Below, in pieces: positions 2,468-12,272 of a DNA stretch of 64,000 bases. The notes under the pieces were generated by a model. That model ran no database searches, was not told the DNA's origin, and saw only the letters and a list, made by a program, of their open reading frames with translations. The DNA comes from Oceanidesulfovibrio marinus (GTDB lineage Bacteria; Desulfobacterota; Desulfovibrionia; Desulfovibrionales; Desulfovibrionaceae), in assembly GCF_013085545.1 (NCBI RefSeq), contig NZ_CP039543.1, positions 620,001-684,000 on the forward strand, written 5' to 3'. The first letter of the stretch is position 1, and each line of letters opens with the position of its first letter. The translations under genes were made by a program, and so were the position numbers.

Positions 2468-3763
2468 CTACAGTCCCACCTCGGCCAGGTCCTCGCCCAG
2501 GTAGCCGCGCTCGTTCTCGCCCAGAATGCCCAGGGAGAGGCAGATGAGCGTCCAGAGGTGCACCACCGGGAAGTGCGCGCCGGAGAACTCGCTCAGGTCG
2601 TGGATCTGCGAGTGGCAGTTGTGGCACGGCGCTATGCAGTAATCGGCCTTGGTGGCCAGGATCTGCTTGAGCTTGGCGTCTCCATACTTGCGGCGCTGTT
2701 CCGAGAAGCCGGACTGGAGGTAGCCGCCCCCGCCGCCGCAGCAGTAGTTGTTGGAGCGGTTGGGCCACATGTCGATGAAGTTCTCCTCGCCCACCACGGA
2801 CGTGACCACGAAGCGCAGGTCCTCGGCCACGGGATCGCCCAGGGATTTCCGGACGAGCTGGCAGGGGTCCTGCACCGTGAAGGTCACCCCCAGCTCTTTG
2901 TTCCAGTCGGAGCTCACGGGCAGCTTGCCCTCGCGAATCCACCTGGCGTAGAGGCGGATGATGGATTCCATCTCGAATGAATGCTCGATGTTGAACTTTT
3001 GCAGTCCGGCCCGGACTGCGTAGAACTCGTGCCCTCACTCCGTGTTGAGCCAGACCTTGCACCCCAGGTCCTCCACGGCCTGCGCCTTGTTGCGCACCAC
3101 CTGCTCCCAGGCCGCGTCGTCCGCCGCGAACATGCAGTAGTTCTCCGCGGCCCAGCCTCTGGTGGAGTATGTCCAGTCCGCGCCCACCAGGTGCAGGATC
3201 TTCCACAGCGGCACCATCTCGTCCGGTTCGGTCACGGGCTCACGCGAGTTCTGATTCAGGAAGTAGTAGGCGCCTTTCTTGTCCACAGGGGCCTGCAGCT
3301 CTTCGAAGCCGGGTTGCGACTCCCGGACCTCTTCCAGGATGTCCTCGACCACGAACTTGAAGTCCTCGCTGGATGCACCCATGGCGCTGTTGCCGTCGGT
3401 GCGTAGGGCCTGGTCGCAGGAGCCGATGATGCCCTTGGGGCGCTCCTCGCGTGGCCACTGGGAGCGGCACCAGTAGATGAGCTGCGGGATGTTCACGCCC
3501 ATGGGGCAGGCGTGCACGCAGCGCTGGCACATGGAGCACATCCAGACCCACGGCGTCTTCAGCGCGATGTCGTCCAGCCCGTAGGCGCAGAGCCGCAGGA
3601 ACCTGCGCGGGTCCATGCCCTCCAGGCCGGAGGCCGGGCAGCCGTCCACGCATGTGCCGCAGGTCATGCACATGGAGAGGTTGCCGCCTTCCGGCAGCAG
3701 CTCGGCCACCTTGTCCATCAGCTCGGAGCTCGTGTCCGGCGTCAGCACGGCTTGGTCACTCAT
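2468..3763 (-). CDS. DsrK/HdrD-like iron-sulfur oxidoreductase, selenocysteine-containing
   Basis: A predicted 431-residue cytoplasmic iron-sulfur protein that reads through an in-frame UGA at 3035-3037 as Sec243. The frame is otherwise open from ATG 3763 (preceded by GGGGGAGG) to 2468. An N-terminal HdrC-like part has two 4Fe-4S motifs, Cys32/35/38/42 and Cys76/79/82/86. A C-terminal HdrB-like CCG domain has Cys301, Cys341-Cys342 in NYCCGGGGG, and Cys380/Cys383 in PCHNC. Sec243 sits in NTE-U-GHEFY, exactly where the upstream paralogue has Cys244 in NIE-C-GHSFY. A 19-base inverted repeat starts 15 bases after the UGA and fits a bacterial SECIS. An automated annotation would split this gene into two fragments (3763-3035 and 2971-2468). 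The electron donor and acceptor are unknown; by operon context it should exchange electrons with the HdrABC-type complex. The family is known for noncubane-cluster disulfide chemistry. The Sec assignment is inference, but several features agree. Confidence 0.88.
3001..3019 (-). promoter_or_regulatory. Candidate bacterial SECIS hairpin for Sec243
   Basis: In the mRNA, 15 bases after the UGA, a perfect palindrome folds as an 8-bp stem (GCAGUCCG / CGGACUGC) with loop GGC. The apical loop lies 23 bases from the UGA and begins with G. Both points fit the published bacterial SECIS model (loop 16-37 bases downstream, a G in the first two loop positions). The aligned stretch in the Cys-encoding paralogue (about 4341-4374) has similar amino acids but lacks the palindrome. 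The element would recruit SelB-tRNA-Sec. Confidence 0.82.
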
Positions 3764-3801
3764 TGTTTCCTCCCCCGGGATGAACGCATCCCGCTGCACA
3801 G

Positions 3802-5106
3802 TCATTCGGGCAGGCCCACCTCGGCCAGCTCCGGCCCCAGGTAGGTCCGCTCGTTTTCGCCCAGCACGCCGAGGCTCAGGCAGAGGATGGTCCACAGGTT
3901 CACGGTGTGCCATCCGCCCTCGTAGTGCTCGGACAGCTCCTCGATCTGCGCGTGGCAGTTGTGGCACGGGGTAATCACATAGTCCGCGTGCGTGGCCAGT
4001 ATCTGCCCGGCCTTGACCTTGCCGTAGGCCAGCCGCGCGTCCTTGTAGCCGGACTGCAGGAACCCGCCGCCACCGCCACAGCAGTAGTTGTTGGAGCGGT
4101 TGGGGAACATCTCCACGAAGTTCTGCTCACCCACGCAGGCCTTGGTCACGAAGCGCAGATCCTCGGCGAACGGGTTGCCCATGGACTTGCGCACGGCCAT
4201 GCACGGGTCCTGCACGGTGAAGCGCAGGCCGAGGTCATCGTTCCAGGCCGAGCTGGGCTGGAGCGTGCCCTCGCGAATCCAGCGCGCGTACCAGCGCACG
4301 ATGTGGTCGAACTCGATGTCCGTATCCAGGCCGAAGCGCTGCATGCCGGCCCAGATGGAGTAGAAGGAGTGGCCGCACTCGATGTTGATCCAGGAGGAGC
4401 AGCCCAGCTCCTGCACGCCCTGGAGCTGCTTTTCGAGGATCGCTTTCCAGTGGTCGTCCTCGGCCGCGAACATGCAGTAGTTCTCAGCGCCCCAGCCGTG
4501 GGTGCCGTAGGTCCAGTCCGCACCGGCCAGGTGCAGAATCTTCCACAGCGGCACCATCTCCTCGGGCTCCTTCACAGGCTCGCGGGAGTTCTGGTTCACG
4601 TAGAAGTACGCGCCGTGCTTGTCGATGGGGGCTTCCAGGTCCGCAAAGGCCGGCTGGGTCTCGCGCACCTCCTCCAGCACGTCCTCCACGGTAAAGCGGA
4701 AGTCCTCGCTGGAGATGCCCACGGCGCTGGCGCCTTCCGTGCGCAGGCCCTGATCGCAGGAGCCGATGATGCCCTTGGGCTTCTTTTCCCGCGGCCAGCG
4801 CGCGCGTATCTCGTACACGAGCATGGGGATGTTCACCTGCATGGGGCAGGCCTGCATGCAGCGGAAGCACATGGTGCACATCCAGACCCACGGCGTGGAC
4901 AAGACCTCCTCGTCCTGACCAAAGGCGGCCAGCCGCAGGAACCTGCGCGGGTCCATGCCTTCCAGGCCGGAGGCCGGGCAGCCGTTCACGCAGGCGCCGC
5001 AGGTCATACACATGGACAGATTGCCGCCCTGGGGCAAGGCCGCGGCGGCCAGCTCCATGACCTCGGAGCGGTGCGCCGGCGTCAACGTTCGGGCGTGTTC
5101 CACCAT
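3802..5106 (-). CDS. DsrK/HdrD-like iron-sulfur oxidoreductase (Cys paralogue)
   Basis: A 434-residue paralogue of the downstream selenoprotein with the same architecture. An N-terminal dicluster ferredoxin segment has Cys33/36/39/43 in CMTCGACVNGCP and a second CxxCxxCxxxCP set. A CCG-type cysteine-rich domain follows, with DPC, NYCCGGGGG and PCHNC. Cys244 in NIECGHSFY aligns with the UGA of the neighbour. I chose ATG 5106 (MVEHART) because GGAGG lies 5 bases before it; the in-frame ATG at 5118 has no ribosome-binding site. The gene ends 38 bases before the selenoprotein start. Proteins of this family (DsrK, HdrD, TmcB, HmcF) pass electrons between quinol, cytochrome or Hdr modules and thiol or disulfide substrates. 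No membrane segment is visible. Confidence 0.9.
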   Translation of the reverse strand: MVEHARTLTPAHRSEVMELAAAALPQGGNLSMCMTCGACVNGCPASGLEGMDPRRFLRLAAFGQDEEVLSTPWVWMCTMCFRCMQACPMQVNIPMLVYEIRARWPREKKPKGIIGSCDQGLRTEGASAVGISSEDFRFTVEDVLEEVRETQPAFADLEAPIDKHGAYFYVNQNSREPVKEPEEMVPLWKILHLAGADWTYGTHGWGAENYCMFAAEDDHWKAILEKQLQGVQELGCSSWINIECGHSFYSIWAGMQRFGLDTDIEFDHIVRWYARWIREGTLQPSSAWNDDLGLRFTVQDPCMAVRKSMGNPFAEDLRFVTKACVGEQNFVEMFPNRSNNYCCGGGGGFLQSGYKDARLAYGKVKAGQILATHADYVITPCHNCHAQIEELSEHYEGGWHTVNLWTILCLSLGVLGENERTYLGPELAEVGLPE

Positions 5107-5170
5107 GGCGTCCTCCATGGATGCTATGATTGTTGCGCTCCGGGGCAGGAACTCCGGAGCGCTTCATCAC

Positions 5171-6121
5171 CTATGCGTCGGCAGGCGCTTCATGCTCTTC
5201 GGAGGTCACGGCGCCGGTCTGGTCGTACATCAGGCCGCAACGCATATCGAAGTGCTTGTTCACGCTCATGGTCGGGCAGGCCGAGTTCAGGGAGACCTGC
5301 GTGACCGTGGAACCGAGGAAGGCCTTCTCGGGGTCCGTCTCCTTGGAGTGGTGGGCCATGATGATGATATCGGCCTCCTTCATCCGCGCGAGCTTGAGGA
5401 TCTCCATGGAGGGCTTGCCCTCCCAGCACTCGTACTCGCACTCCGCGATGCCGCGCAGGCGATGCTCATACTCCTCCTTGAGCCGCTTCTTGATATCGGT
5501 GATGCGCAGTTCGACCTCCTGCTGGTCGAGCTGCCCGCTGATCCCTTCGATATCCAGGGCGTGGAACATGGTGAGGGCGGACTTGTATTGCCGGGCCATC
5601 TGGCCGCCGTAGTTCACGGCGCAGTCGGCCTGGTCGGAGAAGTCCGTGGCTACCACCACGCGCAGGAAGTTGGTTTCGACGTCGCACAGCGGCCGGGACA
5701 CGATCATCACCGGGCAGCGGGCCCGCTGGCTGACGCGTTCCAGGGTGCTGCCAGTCATGCCCCACATGCGGGAGCGGCGCTCGGCGTGCTCCTTGGTGTG
5801 CGGTCCCAGCACGATGAGATCGGAGTTCACCTTGCGCGCCGTACGCAGAAGCTCTGCGTGCGGCATGCCGGGCACCACCATGATCTCAAAGTGCTCCAGG
5901 TCCTGCAGCCGCGGTCCGTAGTACTCCTGGATCTGCTCACGGAGACGGCCGGTCTCGCCGCTGCCTTCGAGGTAGCGAATCTCGCCCCAGCCCTGGGCCG
6001 CGCCGGCCACATGGACCAGGTAGAGCTTGGCGTCGAAGCGCTTGGCGAACCCGACGGCCGCGTTCACGGCGCACTCGTCCACTCCGGAAGGCGTCACACC
6101 GACAACGATGTCCTTAAACAT
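5171..6121 (-). CDS. Tandem universal stress protein (two UspA domains)
   Basis: A 316-residue cytoplasmic protein with two Usp domains. The first (about 1-145) starts MFKDIVVGVTPSG and has a nucleotide-loop-like GMTGSTLERVSQRARCPV. The second (about 150-295) starts FLRVVVATDFSDQADCAV and has AHHSKETDPEKAFLGSTV before SACPTMSV. Usp domains bind ATP or AMP in many species and act in stress or energy sensing. The gene lies between hdrB and the DsrK-like pair on the same strand with short gaps, so it is probably co-transcribed. A regulator or stabiliser of the redox complex is plausible, but nothing in the sequence proves it. Confidence 0.9.
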   Translation of the reverse strand: MFKDIVVGVTPSGVDECAVNAAVGFAKRFDAKLYLVHVAGAAQGWGEIRYLEGSGETGRLREQIQEYYGPRLQDLEHFEIMVVPGMPHAELLRTARKVNSDLIVLGPHTKEHAERRSRMWGMTGSTLERVSQRARCPVMIVSRPLCDVETNFLRVVVATDFSDQADCAVNYGGQMARQYKSALTMFHALDIEGISGQLDQQEVELRITDIKKRLKEEYEHRLRGIAECEYECWEGKPSMEILKLARMKEADIIIMAHHSKETDPEKAFLGSTVTQVSLNSACPTMSVNKHFDMRCGLMYDQTGAVTSEEHEAPADA

Positions 6122-6159: not shown

Positions 6160-7083
6160 TCAGGCCTCCTCGACGACCGTTTCCTCGAGGGAACCTTGCG
6201 TGGCCCAGCCCTGGCGCATTCCGGCGCGGAAGCGTGGGGCCAGGCTCATGTTCTTGTTCAGCATCAGCTCATCTTCCGTACAGCCGAAGGCCAGCCCCAT
6301 GAGCTGCGGCAGGTAGACCACGCTCACTGTCTCGCGGGGGCCGCCGTAGCCTGCAGCCTTGCTCTGGTAGGCCTCCAGGTTGATCTGGCACATGGGGCAG
6401 ACCGTGACGACTGCATCTGCCTGGGACGCGCTGTCCAGTATCCGCGCTACCGAGGCAAGGGCCGCCTCCGGCTTGGTCACCATCAGGGACGCGCCGCAGC
6501 AACGCGCCTCGTCGTCCCAGGCCATGGGTTTGACGCCCAGTGCTTCGAGCACCAGGTGCATGGAGCGCGGCTGCCTGGGATCGTCGAACACCGGGTAGGG
6601 CCGCAGAATCTGGCAGCCGTAGTAGGCCGCCGCGGAAAAACCGCTCATGTCACGCTCCGTCCTGGCCGCGATGGCTCCGGTGCCCACGTCGTTGATCAGG
6701 ATGTCCAGCAGGTGGCGCGGTTTGGCCCGGCCGGTGTAGCGCAGGTCCTCCACGGAAAGCGCCTCGTTGATCTGGGCCAGCAGCTTCTTGTCGTGGCGTG
6801 TGTCCTCCACAACGCGGAGCAGGTTGAGGTAGCAGGCGCTGCACGGCACGAGGATGTCGTCCACATCCATAAGCTGCTCCACCAGGGCGAGGTTCCGCGC
6901 CGGCAGCACGTAGGTCAGCAGCCGGCTCACGGACTCCACGGCGCTGGCCCCGCAACAGGTCCAGTCCGGAATCTCGGTGAGCTCCGCGTCCAGGACGTCC
7001 ATCACCTGGCGGACGCTGCGGTCGTACTCCACCGCGCTCTCCAGGAGCGAGCAGCCGGGGTAGTAGGCGTAGTGGTGCGTCAT
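6160..7083 (-). CDS. hdrB: HdrB-like heterodisulfide reductase subunit
   Basis: A 307-residue soluble subunit with two complete CCG domains. The first has Cys11 (YYPGC), Cys43-Cys44 (TCCGAS) and Cys81/Cys84 (PCSAC). The second has Cys157 (YYGC), Cys195-Cys196 (CCGAS) and Cys229/Cys232 (CPMC). In methanogen HdrB these ligate the paired noncubane 4Fe-4S clusters that reduce a disulfide, so the catalytic set is intact. ATG 7083 overlaps the hdrC stop in an ATGA junction, implying translational coupling. The physiological disulfide or other acceptor is unknown; sulfate reducers lack CoM/CoB. Confidence 0.93.
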   Translation of the reverse strand: MTHHYAYYPGCSLLESAVEYDRSVRQVMDVLDAELTEIPDWTCCGASAVESVSRLLTYVLPARNLALVEQLMDVDDILVPCSACYLNLLRVVEDTRHDKKLLAQINEALSVEDLRYTGRAKPRHLLDILINDVGTGAIAARTERDMSGFSAAAYYGCQILRPYPVFDDPRQPRSMHLVLEALGVKPMAWDDEARCCGASLMVTKPEAALASVARILDSASQADAVVTVCPMCQINLEAYQSKAAGYGGPRETVSVVYLPQLMGLAFGCTEDELMLNKNMSLAPRFRAGMRQGWATQGSLEETVVEEA

Positions 7084-7649
7084 GTCCGTTCCTCCATTTC
7101 GTCCACCTTGCGGAAGAGCAGCTCCAGCCTGCCGGCAAAGGCGCGGCTGGGCGGGTGGAGCTTGCCCTTGCCGAGCATCTTCATGCCGATGGGGGTGAAC
7201 TCCAGGGCGCGCCTCGGGCTGGCCAGGGATGTGAGATAGCTCGACATCAGCGCAGTCTCCTGCACCCGGCCGTAGCGGCGGATATTGCCGGCAAAGGCGC
7301 GGTAGAAGGCGGATTTCCTGCGCGATGCGCGGTCGTGCTCCCCGGCCAGGCGCTTGAGCGCGGCCATGGCGCGCGTGGGCTCCACATCGCGCGGGCAGCG
7401 CAGCCAGCACGTGTAGCAGGAGGAGCACATCCAGAAGGTCCTGGACTCGAAAATGCGGTCCAGCTGGCCCAACTGCACCAGCCGCCAGAGCTGCCGCGGC
7501 GTGAGGTCCATGGCCTGGGCGTTGGGGCAGGAGGCCGTGCACGTGCCGCACTGCATGCAGCGCGAGAGCATTGCCTGGAGCTCACACAGCTCGCTGTCTT
7601 GCGGCAGCGGCGTGATGGTGAGGGCCTGGTGTTTCGTCATCTGGCGCAT
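7080..7649 (-). CDS. hdrC: HdrC-like iron-sulfur subunit
   Basis: A 189-residue electron-transfer subunit with two 4Fe-4S motifs, Cys31/34/37/41 (CMQCGTCTASCP) and Cys75/78/81/85 (CSSCYTCWLRCP), followed by a helical region. It should carry electrons from HdrA to HdrB. GAGGAG lies 6 bases before ATG 7649. It overlaps hdrB by four bases and follows the giant HdrA fusion by 19 bases. No transmembrane helix is present, so this is a soluble HdrABC type and not the membrane HdrDE type. Confidence 0.92.
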   Translation of the reverse strand: MRQMTKHQALTITPLPQDSELCELQAMLSRCMQCGTCTASCPNAQAMDLTPRQLWRLVQLGQLDRIFESRTFWMCSSCYTCWLRCPRDVEPTRAMAALKRLAGEHDRASRRKSAFYRAFAGNIRRYGRVQETALMSSYLTSLASPRRALEFTPIGMKMLGKGKLHPPSRAFAGRLELLFRKVDEMEERT

Positions 7650-7668: not shown

Positions 7669-10600
7669 TCAGGCCGGTTCCTCCAGGGCGGCGTCGATCA
7701 TGGAGAGCACGGGGCCGTCGTGGAATCCCGTGAGCACCGTGGCGCTGTTGGGACACACGGCGGCGCACGAGCCGCAGCCCTGGCAGAGGATTTCGTCCAC
7801 CTCGATCCGCTCCAGGTCGAGATTCACGCTGCGCGCGCCGTACGGGCAGGCTGTGATGCAGCGCTGGCACAGGGAGCAGAGGCTGTGGCGCACCGTGGCC
7901 ACCACGGTCTCCCGCGCGATCTTCTCGGCGCTGAGGATGCGTATGGCGCGCTGCGCCGCGGCCTGGGCCGAGACTATGGCCTCGCTCATGGAAGCCGGGG
8001 CCCGTCCCAGCCCGCACATGAAGATCCCCTGCTTGAGGAAGTCCACGGGCCGCCACTTGGAGTCGGCCTCCTGGTAGAAGCCGTTTTCATCGATGGCCAC
8101 GCCGAAGATCTCCAGCAGGTCATCCACCTCGTTGGGCTCCACCCCGCTGGAGAGCACCAGCCTGTCGGGCCGGATCTGGATGGTCTCGCCCAGGATGGGG
8201 TCTTTGGCCGTGATCACCGGCGCGTCGTCTTCGAAGCCCACCTCGGGCTTGTGCGCCAGGGTGTAGGGAATGAAAATGGCCCCGGCCTTGCGCGCCTCGG
8301 TGTAGTAGTGCTCGCGGAAGCCGTAGCTCATGATGTCGCGGTAGAAGACGTAGATATCGAGGTCCGGGTTCTTGCGCTTGAGGGCCAGAATGTTCTTGAG
8401 CGCCTCGCCGCAGCAGACCCGGCTGCAGTAGTTGCGGTCTTCGTCGCGGGAGCGCCAGCATTGGATCATGGCCACGCTGTTCAGCCCCTTCACATCCAGG
8501 GTTCCGGTGGCGAGCTGCTCTTCGAGTTCGAGCTGGGAGAGCACGGACTTATGCACGCGGAACCCGTACTCGTAGACGCGGGACTCGTGCCCGCCCGTGG
8601 CCAGGATGGTCACGCCGTGGTCCACCACCAGGGTGCCCTCGTCAGAGGTGACGGCGCTTTGGAAGTGGCCGGCCGTGCCGCGGGAGAAGACCACCCGCGC
8701 GTCCGTGAGGACCTTGATCTTGGGATGCTTGCGCACCTGCTCGATGAGGTCCTCCATGTGCCGGCGGGGCTCGCCGCCGTCCAGGGTGTAGTGCAGCTTC
8801 ATGGCCTGGCCGCCGAGCTCTTCCTCCTGCTCCACGAGCACGACCTCATAGCCCTGGTCGGCGATGGCCATGGCCGACGTCATGCCGGAGAGACCGCCGC
8901 CTACGATCAGGGCCCGGCGCGCCACGTTGACCGTGACGGGCGGGGGCACGGGGTCTGCCCCCAGCAGCCGGGCATGGGCCTGGGCCAGGGCGGAGTAGAC
9001 CTGCTTGTTGCGCGAGGCCGTGCGTTCGCCGTTGCCGCCCATCACCGGGGTGTAGATGTCCACCACGTCCATCAGCGCCGGGTTGAGGCCGATGGCCCGG
9101 CCCAGCTCCCGCAGCCTGGGCACGTAGGCGTAGGGCAGGCACGCGCCGATGAGGATGCGGTTGGCCCTGGTCTCCGCGGCCATGTCCTGGATCTGCTGCC
9201 AGCCCTTCTCGGTGCAGGCTCCGTCCACGCAGGCCACGGTGTGCACAGCGGGCAGGGAGCGCACCTTGCGCTCCACGTCCTCCACATCCACGTTCTGTTC
9301 CAGGGTGGGGCAGGAGCTGCACAGGGCCACCAGGGAGCGCGCCGGCTCGCGAGAGACGTCCGGGTACTCGGTTTCGGGCTGGGGCTCCAGGCCGGTGAGC
9401 GCGTCGTAGATCTTGATGAGCCGCGAGGCACCCTGGGCCGCCGCGCCGGACTGGATGACCGACTCGGCGATGTCCTTGGGCCTACCGAATGCCCCGGCCG
9501 CGAACACGCCGAGCCGGCTGGTGCGCTCGGGCGTGAACTCCGGGCTCTCGCAGAAGCCGTAGGCGTTCACGTCGATGTCGGCCACCTCGGCCAGCTTGGC
9601 CATGTTCTTGGGTGGCACCGCGCCCGTGGCCAGCACCACCATGTCGAACTCCTCCTCGATCCGCTCGCCGGCGTCGTCGATGTAGCCGATGACCGGGTTG
9701 CCGGTTTCGGGCGAGGGGATGATGGTGTGCGGACGGGAGCGCACCAGGCGGACGCCGTCCTGCAACGCCTTGTTCTTGTAGCTCTCGAAGTTCTTTCCGA
9801 AGGTGCGCAGGTCCATGTAGAAGATGGTGGTCTCGGCCCCGTCGCCAATGGCCTTGCGGGCCAGCACGGCCTCCTTGAGCGAGAACATGCAGCAGATGGA
9901 GGAGCAGTAGTCCGCGCCGGTCTTCAGATCGCGGGAGCCTACGCACTGTATCCAGGCGATGCGTTTTGCGGGCTTTCCGTCACCTGGGCGGAACAGCTTG
10001 CCCTCGCTGGGGCCGGTCTTGGAGAGGATACGCTCGAACTCCACGGCTGTGACCACGCCGGGGATGACGCCGTAGCCCAGGGTGTCCGAGAACTTGCGCG
10101 GGTCGAAGCACTCGAACCCGCCGGCCAGGACCACTGCGCCCACGTCCAGCACGATGCGCTTGTCCGAGAGGATGCGCATGTAGAGCTTGTCCATCCACGG
10201 GACCAGGGTCCGCGGTTCCAACGGCTTGGCCAGCACCTCGCGGGCCCCCAGCTTGAGCAGCTCGTTCGCGCGTTCTTTGGACTCCTCGGAGGCCATCAGC
10301 ACCACCGTGAGGTCGGGCCGCAGCTCCTTGGCGCGCAGCAGGATGCGCTCGGCGTCCATGTCCTTCATGTCCACGTCCAGGAGCATGAGGCGGAAGCGGT
10401 CGTCCTCTGCCAGCAAGTCCACGGCCTCGGCACCTGTGGTGACGCCGTGCAGCGGGAAGTTCTGCGCCTGGAGCCAGTCGGAGAGGAACTCGCCGGTGTT
10501 GGGGTCCGGGTCGGCGATGAGGATGTGGAAGTCCTTGCGTTCCTCGAACTTGAAGTCGATGGCTCCGGTGGGACAGGCTTCGTAGCACTGCCAGCAGCGC

Positions 10601-11094
10601 AAGCAGTTATCCAGGTCCACCACGTAGCGGTTGGGGATGTTGTGCGGCACCGGCAGGTATACGGCCGGCCGCTGGGTGAGCCCGGCATTGAACTCGTTGG
10701 GCACACGCACCGGGCAGACTTCGGAGCATTGGCCGCAGGACACGCACTTGTGCGGATCGACCAGGGTGGAGCGCTGCACGAGCTCTGCCGTGAAGCGGCC
10801 CGGCTCTCCATCCAGGGCAGTGAGCTCCGTGGAGAGGTAGAGATCGATGTTGTCGTGGAACAGCCCCTTGCGCAGGCAGTATTGGCTGGCCGAGTCCCGC
10901 GCCATCAGCGGCAGCATCTTGCACATGCCGCAGTGGTCGTTGGGGAACTGGTGGTCGAGCTGGGCCAGGATGCCGCCGTGGTGGGGCCGCTGGTCGATGA
11001 GCGCCACCCTGTGGCCCGTGACCGCCAGGTCCAGGGCTGCGCGGATGCCGCCGATGCCGGCTCCGACCACTAGCGCCGCGTAATTCTTCTTCAT
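7669..11094 (-). CDS. Giant tandem HdrA with embedded receiver domain (HdrL-like)
   Basis: A 1141-residue iron-sulfur flavoprotein with two HdrA-like units. The first has an N-terminal FAD motif (VVGAGIGG, about 9-16), ferredoxin clusters at about 115-125 and 165-176, and the HdrA cysteine set in QCVGSRD...CSSICC (about 385-405). Between them, at about 188-305, is a receiver domain: HILIADPDP, phosphoacceptor Asp240 in LLDVDM, and Lys290 in LAKP. The second unit (about 600-1141) has its own HdrA N-terminal domain, FAD motif IVGGGLSG (about 728), cysteine set QCWRSRDEDRNYCSRVCC, and two C-terminal ferredoxin motifs (CSLCQRCITACP, CQGCGSCAAVCP). HdrA is the flavin-based bifurcating subunit. Large double HdrA proteins are known in sulfate reducers; the receiver insertion is the unusual part. 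All cofactor and phosphorylation residues look intact. Confidence 0.92.
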   Translation of the reverse strand: MKKNYAALVVGAGIGGIRAALDLAVTGHRVALIDQRPHHGGILAQLDHQFPNDHCGMCKMLPLMARDSASQYCLRKGLFHDNIDLYLSTELTALDGEPGRFTAELVQRSTLVDPHKCVSCGQCSEVCPVRVPNEFNAGLTQRPAVYLPVPHNIPNRYVVDLDNCLRCWQCYEACPTGAIDFKFEERKDFHILIADPDPNTGEFLSDWLQAQNFPLHGVTTGAEAVDLLAEDDRFRLMLLDVDMKDMDAERILLRAKELRPDLTVVLMASEESKERANELLKLGAREVLAKPLEPRTLVPWMDKLYMRILSDKRIVLDVGAVVLAGGFECFDPRKFSDTLGYGVIPGVVTAVEFERILSKTGPSEGKLFRPGDGKPAKRIAWIQCVGSRDLKTGADYCSSICCMFSLKEAVLARKAIGDGAETTIFYMDLRTFGKNFESYKNKALQDGVRLVRSRPHTIIPSPETGNPVIGYIDDAGERIEEEFDMVVLATGAVPPKNMAKLAEVADIDVNAYGFCESPEFTPERTSRLGVFAAGAFGRPKDIAESVIQSGAAAQGASRLIKIYDALTGLEPQPETEYPDVSREPARSLVALCSSCPTLEQNVDVEDVERKVRSLPAVHTVACVDGACTEKGWQQIQDMAAETRANRILIGACLPYAYVPRLRELGRAIGLNPALMDVVDIYTPVMGGNGERTASRNKQVYSALAQAHARLLGADPVPPPVTVNVARRALIVGGGLSGMTSAMAIADQGYEVVLVEQEEELGGQAMKLHYTLDGGEPRRHMEDLIEQVRKHPKIKVLTDARVVFSRGTAGHFQSAVTSDEGTLVVDHGVTILATGGHESRVYEYGFRVHKSVLSQLELEEQLATGTLDVKGLNSVAMIQCWRSRDEDRNYCSRVCCGEALKNILALKRKNPDLDIYVFYRDIMSYGFREHYYTEARKAGAIFIPYTLAHKPEVGFEDDAPVITAKDPILGETIQIRPDRLVLSSGVEPNEVDDLLEIFGVAIDENGFYQEADSKWRPVDFLKQGIFMCGLGRAPASMSEAIVSAQAAAQRAIRILSAEKIARETVVATVRHSLCSLCQRCITACPYGARSVNLDLERIEVDEILCQGCGSCAAVCPNSATVLTGFHDGPVLSMIDAALEEPA

Positions 11095-11126: not shown

Positions 11127-12272
11127 CTAGTCGGCGCCCGCCACCTCCGGGAACTCGTCCGCCTTGAACACGGACAAGGGCGGCGGCTCGTCGAAGCTGC
11201 GTCCGGGCACGTAGTCAAACCCTGCCTGGGTGCGCGCGCCCACGGTGCGGAACAGCTCCATCACCGGGATATCGTTGGGGCAGGCGTTGGAGCACTGGCC
11301 GCAGCCCACGCAGGAGGTGGACATGTGCGCGAGCCGCGTGAGGTGGAAGAAGAGGGTGTCCGTAGGCATCTTGAGCATGCCCTTGTGCCTGGCCCAGCCC
11401 AGGTACTGCCACGGCTTGTGGTCGAAGACGTCGGTGAGGAAGACGCACTCCTTGCAGTAGCACACCGGGCAGGCTGCGCGGCAGTTGTAGCAGTTCACGC
11501 AACGGGCAAAGAACTCCGAGAGCCCGGCCAGGGTGGAGGTGGCTTCGTGGGTGCGCTCGAACATGGCGTTGCGGTAGGCGGTGCGCTTCTCGACCAGGGC
11601 GTCCATGGCGGCGCGCCGCGCGGACGGGTCCTCCACATCGGCTAGGCCCAGCCGGCTGAGCACGGCCTCGCCCTGGGGCGTGTGGGCCGTGACCACGAAG
11701 TGGTCCCCAAGGTCCATGCCCACCAGGCCGATGCCGATGTCCGCACCCAGAGGCTCCAGGTTCTCGCAGGACTGGCACGCCTCGGCGATGTCGTAGTCGC
11801 TCTGGGCCGTGTCCTCGGAACCGCCGGTCTTGCCCAGGAACCCGGAGGTAAGGGACATGGGGTCATCGCCGCCGATGTAGCGCGGGTAGTTCCTGTTGCT
11901 GTACGCGCCCAGGCAGTCGAACCCGATGAGCAGGATCTCGTCCATGCTGCCCTGGTTGAGCTTGACCAGCTCCACAAAGGCGCGGATCTCGCACGGCCGG
12001 AGCACCGCGGCCACGCGGTCGCCGGAGCGTCCGTGGGTCAGCCGGGCGGCCATGCGTGCCGCGTTCATGGGGAATGCGGGCGCCAGGGGATCGGCCCTGT
12101 CCAGCCGCTCGGGATCGGTAATCAGCGTGGGCATGGGCATGCCGTGCGGGTTGAGGTGCGTCTGGACAAAAACGCCTCCGATCTCGCCCTGCCGTAGCAG
12201 CAGCTTCAGGAACTCCTGCACGCCCAGGACCGGGTCGGACCCGGGCACGTCGACTTTCGCGGTAGTGGCCAT
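11127..12272 (-). CDS. FrhB/FdhB-like flavin iron-sulfur subunit
   Basis: A 381-residue protein of the coenzyme F420 hydrogenase/dehydrogenase beta-subunit family. The flavin-binding C-terminal-type domain comes first, with RPCEIRAFVELVKLNQ and IGFDCLGAYSN. A cysteine-rich segment (CVNCYNCRAACPVCYCKEC, about 256-280) and a 4Fe-4S motif (CVGCGQCSNACP, about 318-330) follow. In methanogens this family oxidises F420H2 or supports formate dehydrogenase. In sulfate reducers it sits with HdrA and MvhD as an electron-input module whose donor (NADH, formate or ferredoxin) is unsettled. It lies 27 bases after the MvhD gene and 32 bases before the HdrA fusion. Confidence 0.88.
   Translation of the reverse strand: MATTAKVDVPGSDPVLGVQEFLKLLLRQGEIGGVFVQTHLNPHGMPMPTLITDPERLDRADPLAPAFPMNAARMAARLTHGRSGDRVAAVLRPCEIRAFVELVKLNQGSMDEILLIGFDCLGAYSNRNYPRYIGGDDPMSLTSGFLGKTGGSEDTAQSDYDIAEACQSCENLEPLGADIGIGLVGMDLGDHFVVTAHTPQGEAVLSRLGLADVEDPSARRAAMDALVEKRTAYRNAMFERTHEATSTLAGLSEFFARCVNCYNCRAACPVCYCKECVFLTDVFDHKPWQYLGWARHKGMLKMPTDTLFFHLTRLAHMSTSCVGCGQCSNACPNDIPVMELFRTVGARTQAGFDYVPGRSFDEPPPLSVFKADEFPEVAGAD

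Follow-up and report, generated by a model that had tools for sequence, protein, structure and literature searches.

A predicted selenoprotein of the HdrD/DsrK superfamily in Oceanidesulfovibrio marinus and its possible link to DsrC

An in-frame UGA in a gene for an iron-sulfur protein of Oceanidesulfovibrio marinus raises two questions: whether this codon ends translation or is read as selenocysteine (Sec), and what Sec would do in a protein of this kind. We analyzed the gene, hereafter the Sec gene, in a window of 64,000 nucleotides (contig NZ_CP039543.1, positions 620,001 to 684,000) and followed its relatives in other genomes. Positions are those of the window, and its features are collected in Table 1.

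Table 1. Features of the Sec gene and of its neighbors in the window
Feature	Position	Strand	Basis
Predicted selenoprotein gene, HdrC-like and HdrB-like fusion (HdrD/DsrK-like), 431 residues, U243	2468..3763	-	Translation with TGA=U
UGA codon predicted to be read as selenocysteine, residue 243	3035..3037	-	Site TGA/TGC/TGT in 203/203 distinct homologues
SECIS-like hairpin, GCAGUCC-GGGCC-GGACUGC	3001..3019	-	Begins 18 bases 3' of the first UGA base
Two-cubane [4Fe-4S] ferredoxin domain (Fer4_8), HdrC-like	3494..3679	-	Pfam, residues 29-90
C-terminal CCG domain (C301, C341, C342, C380, C383)	2603..2878	-	PF02754, residues 296-387, 43.1 bits
Tandem paralogue with Cys at the same site	3802..5118	-	66% identity; class without hairpin; nested in Sec clade
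Universal stress protein, 5' of the Sec gene in the same run of genes	5171..6121	-	Pfam Usp, 128.8 bits
HdrB-like protein, two CCG domains (listed ORF)	6160..7551	-	Pfam CCG x2; TIGR03288 145.7 bits, cut-off 345.15
HdrA-like flavoprotein with internal response-regulator receiver domain	7669..11094	-	Pfam; HdrA2 model 657.6 bits, cut-off 1100
FrhB/FdhB-like iron-sulfur protein	11127..12272	-	PF04432 30.7 bits, cut-off 23.3

A conserved reading frame with an in-frame UGA

The Sec gene runs from an ATG at 3763 to a TAG at 2468, 432 codons counting the stop, and its codon 243 is TGA (plus-strand positions 3035-3037). The first-pass annotation had held that standard gene calling would split the gene in two, that the frame is open on either side of the UGA and that the CCG domain 3' of it is preserved. 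All three statements held. The standard-code ORF list breaks the gene exactly at the TGA into two pieces, 3035-3967 and 2468-2971, both on the minus strand, and the CCG domain scores well over its PF02754 cut-off of 20.6 bits. Over 128 alignment rows, the differences at the three codon positions were 0.242, 0.174 and 0.490 before the UGA and 0.172, 0.146 and 0.488 after it; this third-position excess on both sides indicates a coding frame on both sides, with a constraint 3' of the UGA at least equal to that 5' of it.

To see what other genomes hold at this site, the query protein was sought in 84,980 species genomes, where 363 of 376 candidate stretches encode a relative; the best 80 of these 363 were kept. 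From the fetched loci we assembled 203 distinct homologues, that is, tblastn rows extending over at least 300 residues of the query and including residues 230-260, with an identity to the query reaching down to about 26%. The codon at the site of residue 243 was TGA in 162 of them, TGC in 35 and TGT in 6, and no other codon was found, so that the non-TGA rows carry Cys in 41 cases out of 41. An alignment for Cys/Sec exchange at residue 243, which the first-pass annotation had proposed as a check, was therefore clean. Within the window's order (348 genomes, matches at E <= 1e-70), the family was present in 95 genomes, 91 of which have a TGA copy as judged by stop count, the exact site being checked in the fetched loci. 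In its broad sense, with divergent copies included (E <= 1e-60), it was present in 109 of 395 genomes sampled across the phylum. The Sec gene is absent from one genome of the same genus (G001), and a plasmid search for the family gave no match at E 1e-40. A divergent subfamily of 30-39% identity, of the PE-U-GHAY type, has UGA at the same site and is sometimes located near a main-type copy (loci L063, 10162-11301; L146, 2250-3470; L145, L147 and L205-L210; further L214, L221, L222 and L224-L228).

Bacterial selenoprotein genes are marked by a SECIS hairpin just 3' of the UGA, and a hairpin lies there in the Sec gene. We aligned 49 TGA rows, 45 taken from 113 distinct ones and 4 that are distant; standard pairs filled 96.2% of the cells of their 7-bp stem. 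Fourteen stem cells were changed on both sides, a number that none of 500 shuffles reached (shuffled mean, 2.5); such two-sided changes touched four of the seven pairs, compared to 1.9 in shuffles, of which 16 in 500 also came to four. Pairing fell to 9-48% when the 3' arm was slid by 1-3 columns. At least six of the seven pairs were formed in 150 of the 162 TGA rows but in only 6 of the 41 Cys rows, the latter of which may be relics or chance; in 13 aligned Cys rows, pairing was 63.7%, no better than in shuffles, and two-sided changes were absent. The 12 TGA rows that lack the exact stem all fall below 48% identity, and in five of them the hairpin is shifted by one base. Among the 130 TGA rows of at least 60% identity, the stem codons were nearly fixed (GTC in 118, CGG in 114, GGA in 124 and CTG in 108), whereas Cys rows of the same identity had varied codons at these positions. 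An Rfam scan of 2900-3100 returned no SECIS match, only weak matches to unrelated families.

A lack of Sec machinery would have spoken against this reading, and the first-pass annotation had suggested a search for selA, selB, selC and selD. All four are present in the organism's own genome, searched as one contig of 4.76 Mb: a tRNA-Sec (81.8 bits; anticodon tca by ARAGORN), selB (370.8 bits, cut-off 242.25), selA (610.4 bits, cut-off 267.9) and selD (331.4 bits, cut-off 125). The selD gene (L140, C1:325026-325961) itself has one in-frame TGA, at TAAG-U-ASKI, and in the cited table of a review the Sec motif of SelD is given as UxxK (PMC13188914), which makes selD an internal positive control. 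By eye, the bases 3' of the selD TGA resemble a 7-bp hairpin. Across the order, selB exceeded its cut-off in 84 of the 91 genomes with a TGA copy, and the other seven (G216, G230, G237, G302, G018, G052 and G061) are all drafts or incomplete. Two of three Cys-only genomes have selB; the Cys-only genome G179 (3 contigs, 95% complete) gave no selB match at E <= 1e-70. The Fisher value for selB against the TGA copy was 0.001, a value that ignores phylogeny, and G045, whose orthologue is a fragment lacking the site, was left out of the tally.

Two other fates of the UGA have to be weighed against Sec. If it were a real stop, a sequencing error or the mark of a pseudogene, a 242-residue fragment alone would be made, as the two pieces displayed by ORF tools would suggest. 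We consider this extremely improbable. The same TGA recurs in many genomes, including those of other species, and a sequencing error was rejected on this ground; TAA, TAG and non-Cys sense codons never occur at the site in the 203 rows and the coding constraint persists 3' of the UGA, which led us to reject a pseudogene; and the conserved hairpin is found mainly where TGA is present. Just as improbable is that a changed code or readthrough puts Trp or some other residue at the UGA. It would account for the open frame, but not for a replacement residue that is always Cys, on which ground an altered code was rejected, nor for a full Sec machinery with a tRNA-Sec of anticodon tca and a SelD with its own in-frame TGA. 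The site codons, the hairpin and the machinery thus support the proposal of the first-pass annotation that the UGA is decoded as Sec, a reading that is as strong as evidence from sequence allows. We regard it as nearly certain that UGA 243 is decoded by the ordinary bacterial SelB/SECIS route, which would give a 431-residue cytoplasmic electron-transfer enzyme of the HdrD type.

Class, fold and setting of residue 243

The N terminus of the Sec protein matches HdrC (7bkb_C; phmmer E 2.3e-13). An AlphaFold2 model based on 35 sequences had a mean pLDDT of 85.9 and a pTM of 0.86; it is a model without cofactors, and its confidence falls to about 51 at residues 341-350. Its best structural match was mycobacterial EtfD (9ojn; Z 23.8, rmsd 3.1, 365 residues), and model residues 165-430 also matched HdrB (5odc_B; Z 19.5, rmsd 2.8, 254 residues). 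An HdrC match at the N terminus together with an HdrB fold in the C-terminal half indicates an HdrC-HdrB fusion in a single chain. In this it is like the HdrB and HdrC of methanogen HdrABC, but unlike them it has lost most of the first CCG Cys set, and one full noncubane site is therefore expected. The full Cys set in both CCG domains that goes with an HdrB or HdrD of two noncubane clusters is not found in the Sec protein. The C-terminal CCG domain, whose five Cys are invariant (202/202 rows), is expected from these residues to hold a noncubane [4Fe-4S] cluster.

The best NCBIfam relatives of the Sec protein were HmcF (NF045711; 161.2 bits, cut-off 750), TmcB (NF045724; 143.0 bits, cut-off 735) and DsrK (NF045796; 109.9 bits, cut-off 400). 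Genuine members score far higher (own-genome DsrK, 739.3 bits; HmcF relatives, 923; TmcB relatives, 812-826). With scores this far under the cut-offs, the Sec protein belongs beside these three families and not inside them, and DsrK, HmcF and TmcB proper were rejected as its class. The label DsrK/HdrD-like given to it by the first-pass annotation is thus right for the superfamily but does not extend to DsrK, HmcF or TmcB proper. GlpC proper (TIGR03379) was also rejected, at 32.3 bits against a cut-off of 279.9.

The DsrK, TmcB and HmcF of the same genome all have E-C-G-H where the Sec protein has E-U-G-H, and in the part of this DsrK that aligns with residues 165-242 there is no further Cys. 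The Sec protein therefore shares the motif and its place with these relatives, and differs from them in having Sec for Cys and in the HdrA, HdrB and Usp neighbors of its gene. A profile alignment to EtfD put U243 on Cys581, H245 on His583 and E246 on Cys584. The profile covered residues 100-431 and included HmcF and TmcB rows; the alignment scored 38 bits and was anchored by the second CCG domain. It is the sole basis for the register of U243, since a profile made from the first domain by itself gave no match to either EtfD or HdrB; a profile comparison with the HdrB-like protein of the window aligned the second CCG domain only. In the cited account of EtfD, Cys581 and Cys584 ligate the first, linear cluster and His583 ligates the second, noncubane cluster; EtfD has retained a linear [3Fe-4S] cluster and connects ETF with menaquinone; and the noncubane clusters of HdrB each have a bridging Cys that is displaced by substrate (PMC13083937). 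The likeness to EtfD lies in the fold and in the position of H245 on a cluster ligand, while EtfD is membrane-bound and the Sec protein has no membrane part.

Around the site, residue 242 was E, D or Q in 202 of 202 rows, H245 was present in all 161 Sec rows, and the position of Cys584 was E in most rows. The first CCG domain retains U243, C210 and C235 only; it has neither the CC pair nor the second Cys of the CxxC, so that a full first cluster is unlikely. At 48% identity or more, all 160 rows had Cys at position 210, but none of 19 divergent Sec rows did, and C235 was common but not fixed; DsrK and many divergent Sec copies lack both residues. Taken with the EtfD register, this pattern suggests that U243 should face the noncubane cluster from the vacated cavity of the first cluster, with H245 next to it. 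In the main group, C210 could be a resolving Cys or a ligand, and C210 and C235 might possibly hold a first cluster of some kind.

Neighboring genes, DsrC and the proposed reaction

On the minus strand, the genes follow each other in the order FrhB-like protein, HdrA with receiver domain, HdrB-like protein, universal stress protein, Cys copy and Sec copy. The FrhB/FdhB-like protein is a possible electron-input subunit, and the true start of the HdrB-like protein is probably internal to the listed ORF. The receiver domain of the HdrA-like protein (residues 191-298) keeps the aspartate of LLDVDM and the lysine of AKP, which suggests a phospho-controlled Hdr.

We then compared this arrangement with the 80 named loci, in which many neighborhoods are cut by contig ends; all counts are for this reason lower bounds, and each cluster of neighbors was named by one representative. 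At least 9 of the 80 show both an HdrB-like and a Usp match 5' of the Sec gene, accompanied by HdrA in 8 of these 9, the ninth being cut by a contig end. An HdrA-like match of more than 35% identity is located near the Sec gene in at least 28 of the 80. By cluster, MetF-like neighbors were found in at least 11 loci, MetV-like in at least 10, MvhD/FlpD in at least 9 and HdrA in at least 27, and a free receiver-domain protein lies directly upstream of the Sec gene in at least 6. Many loci have no Hdr gene nearby, which indicates that the Sec gene is not tied to one operon. Four loci (L057, L088, L096 and L101) share a neighbor family; in L057 the neighbor, which adjoins the Sec gene, is a pyridine nucleotide-disulfide oxidoreductase with a rhodanese domain. 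In another seven (L084, L085, L095, L098, L102, L103 and L104), the Sec gene is followed by a ParA-like gene, as named by the cluster representative, and mostly then by genes for a ParB-like protein and a LytB-UbiA fusion, an odd setting for a redox gene.

DsrC showed a much more constant association. Among the genomes of the phylum sample, DsrC (TIGR03342 over cut-off) was found in 107 of the 109 with the family and in 98 of the 286 without it; the two exceptions are genomes of 79% and 80% completeness. Counted by genus, the figures were 73 of 74 and 51 of 172. The family thus hardly occurs outside DsrC-bearing genomes in this sample, although shared ancestry inflates the counts and the Fisher value ignores phylogeny. 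DsrMKJOP is described in the cited passage of PMC6470260 as reducing the DsrC trisulfide, and DsrC is the leading candidate substrate of the Sec protein.

We favor, with a probability of roughly 0.57, an HdrD-type selenoenzyme that is fed by HdrA and cleaves a disulfide or trisulfide; its geometry, its chemistry, its substrate and the HdrA partnership are what we infer. The N-terminal half would carry two cubane clusters as in HdrC, and the C-terminal half, of HdrB fold, would hold the noncubane cluster on the five Cys of its second CCG domain, faced by U243 and H245 from the vacated cavity. Electrons from a partner HdrA would pass through the cubanes to the noncubane cluster, and the disulfide or trisulfide substrate would be cleaved between that cluster and the selenolate. 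DsrC or a similar sulfur carrier would be the likeliest substrate. A more specific form, which we put forward tentatively and hold to be rather improbable as worded, is a soluble selenoenzyme arm of the DsrK superfamily, HdrA-fed and widespread in sulfur-dissimilating bacteria, that reduces the DsrC trisulfide or a DsrC-like carrier and in which one selenolate replaces one of the two noncubane clusters of heterodisulfide reductase and acts jointly with the cluster that is left and its histidine.

Two other functions compete with this scheme. The protein may work with HdrA on a substrate other than DsrC, for instance as an HdrBC-like acceptor arm of MetFV-HdrA-MvhD or, elsewhere, within an HdrA-HdrB-Usp system. 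The MetF-, MetV-, MvhD/FlpD- and HdrA-like neighbors counted above point in this direction, as do the loci with HdrB-like and Usp genes, mostly with HdrA. However, many loci show neither arrangement, some of them cut short by contig ends, and the contexts vary by lineage while the presence of DsrC is nearly constant; we therefore see a non-DsrC substrate as a real but minority possibility. Alternatively, Sec could serve as a cluster ligand or redox tuner and not as a thiol-disulfide catalyst, the protein being an electron relay as in EtfD. EtfD is the closest solved fold, its matching stretch ligates both clusters and its D2 is called non-catalytic in the cited text (PMC13083937); H245 aligns with the ligand His583, and the invariant C210 and common C235 of the main group could help to hold a first cluster. 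On the other hand, most rows have E at the Cys584 position, the first domain lacks the CC pair, the divergent Sec rows lack C210, the membrane part of EtfD is missing and DsrMKJOP, whose DsrK has the ECGH motif, is described as acting on the DsrC trisulfide (PMC6470260). We see such a relay, too, as a minority possibility.

Should the specific form of the favored HdrA-fed scheme be true, it would mean that, alongside DsrMKJOP, there is a second way into the final step of sulfate reduction, one that depends on selenium and is possibly bifurcating. If the protein acts on DsrC, the availability of selenium would directly affect sulfite reduction. Given how often the family occurs in the order and in the phylum sample, models of the energy metabolism of sulfate reducers may lack a common selenoenzyme. 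The site is also one where Sec next to a noncubane [4Fe-4S] cluster could be put to the test, with the tandem Sec and Cys copies as a built-in comparison.

Known selenoproteins and the history of the site

Selenoproteins of this kind have been reported before. In the cited part of a 2026 review (PMC13188914), an "Fe-S oxidoreductase-like protein, PTHR43551, UGH" stands among high-confidence predicted selenoproteins and is credited to a 2004 paper. Elsewhere, five GlpC selenoproteins are counted in Deltaproteobacteria, including Desulfovibrio vulgaris, with a glpC-hdrA-frhD-frhG-frhA operon (PMC1794560), HdrD4 of Desulfobacterium autotrophicum HRM2 is named as selenocysteine-containing (PMC2702500), and an Fe-S oxidoreductase TGA cluster includes Desulfotalea DP1009 (PMC1914089), each in the passages cited here. 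The Sec protein has the same U-G-H motif in an Fe-S oxidoreductase with Fer4 and CCG domains (TEUGHEF), as in the GlpC/PTHR43551 selenoproteins, and it resembles HdrD4, by description, in combining HdrC and HdrB domains with no membrane part. The published UGH, GlpC and HdrD4 selenoproteins show that the kind was already known; the Sec gene is a member of it, in a neighborhood not met in the cited passages of these sources. Those passages hold no discussion of the cluster geometry of this Sec or of a link to DsrC, and a search of an open-access library (subscription papers lying outside it) gave no paper pairing "selenocysteine" with "DsrK". What we add is that the site corresponds to the Cys of the E-C-G-H motif of DsrK, TmcB and HmcF; that U243 and H245 fall, by one profile alignment, on EtfD Cys581 and the noncubane-cluster ligand His583; that the family tracks DsrC; and that a Cys paralogue is nested in the Sec clade.

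This paralogue adjoins the Sec gene and, as the first-pass annotation had pointed out, has Cys at the site (NIECGHSFY, compared to NTEUGHEFY). Among the 80 named loci, a close Cys copy lies beside the Sec gene in one other, L041. We built a tree on 108 of the 203 homologues, taking 84 rows that have Cys or lower identity and one in five of the remaining 119, and rooted it on five HmcF/TmcB-type rows, three of whose five loci were scored against those families. At least 14 changes between Sec and Cys are needed on this tree, 13 of them forced by its starred branches; it is a quick tree in which long branches join each other, and of its 105 inner branches 21 are drawn open. The paralogue of the window falls among Sec copies, in a clade made up of eight Cys copies, and this nesting favors a derived copy over the ancestral form. 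Parsimony, applied here to a tree whose branches are not all supported, suggests that the neighboring Cys gene arose by duplication and then changed from Sec to Cys. The Cys copy of locus L150 (site codon 3999-4001, minus strand) has kept six of the seven hairpin pairs, possibly as a relic SECIS left by a recent change from Sec to Cys.
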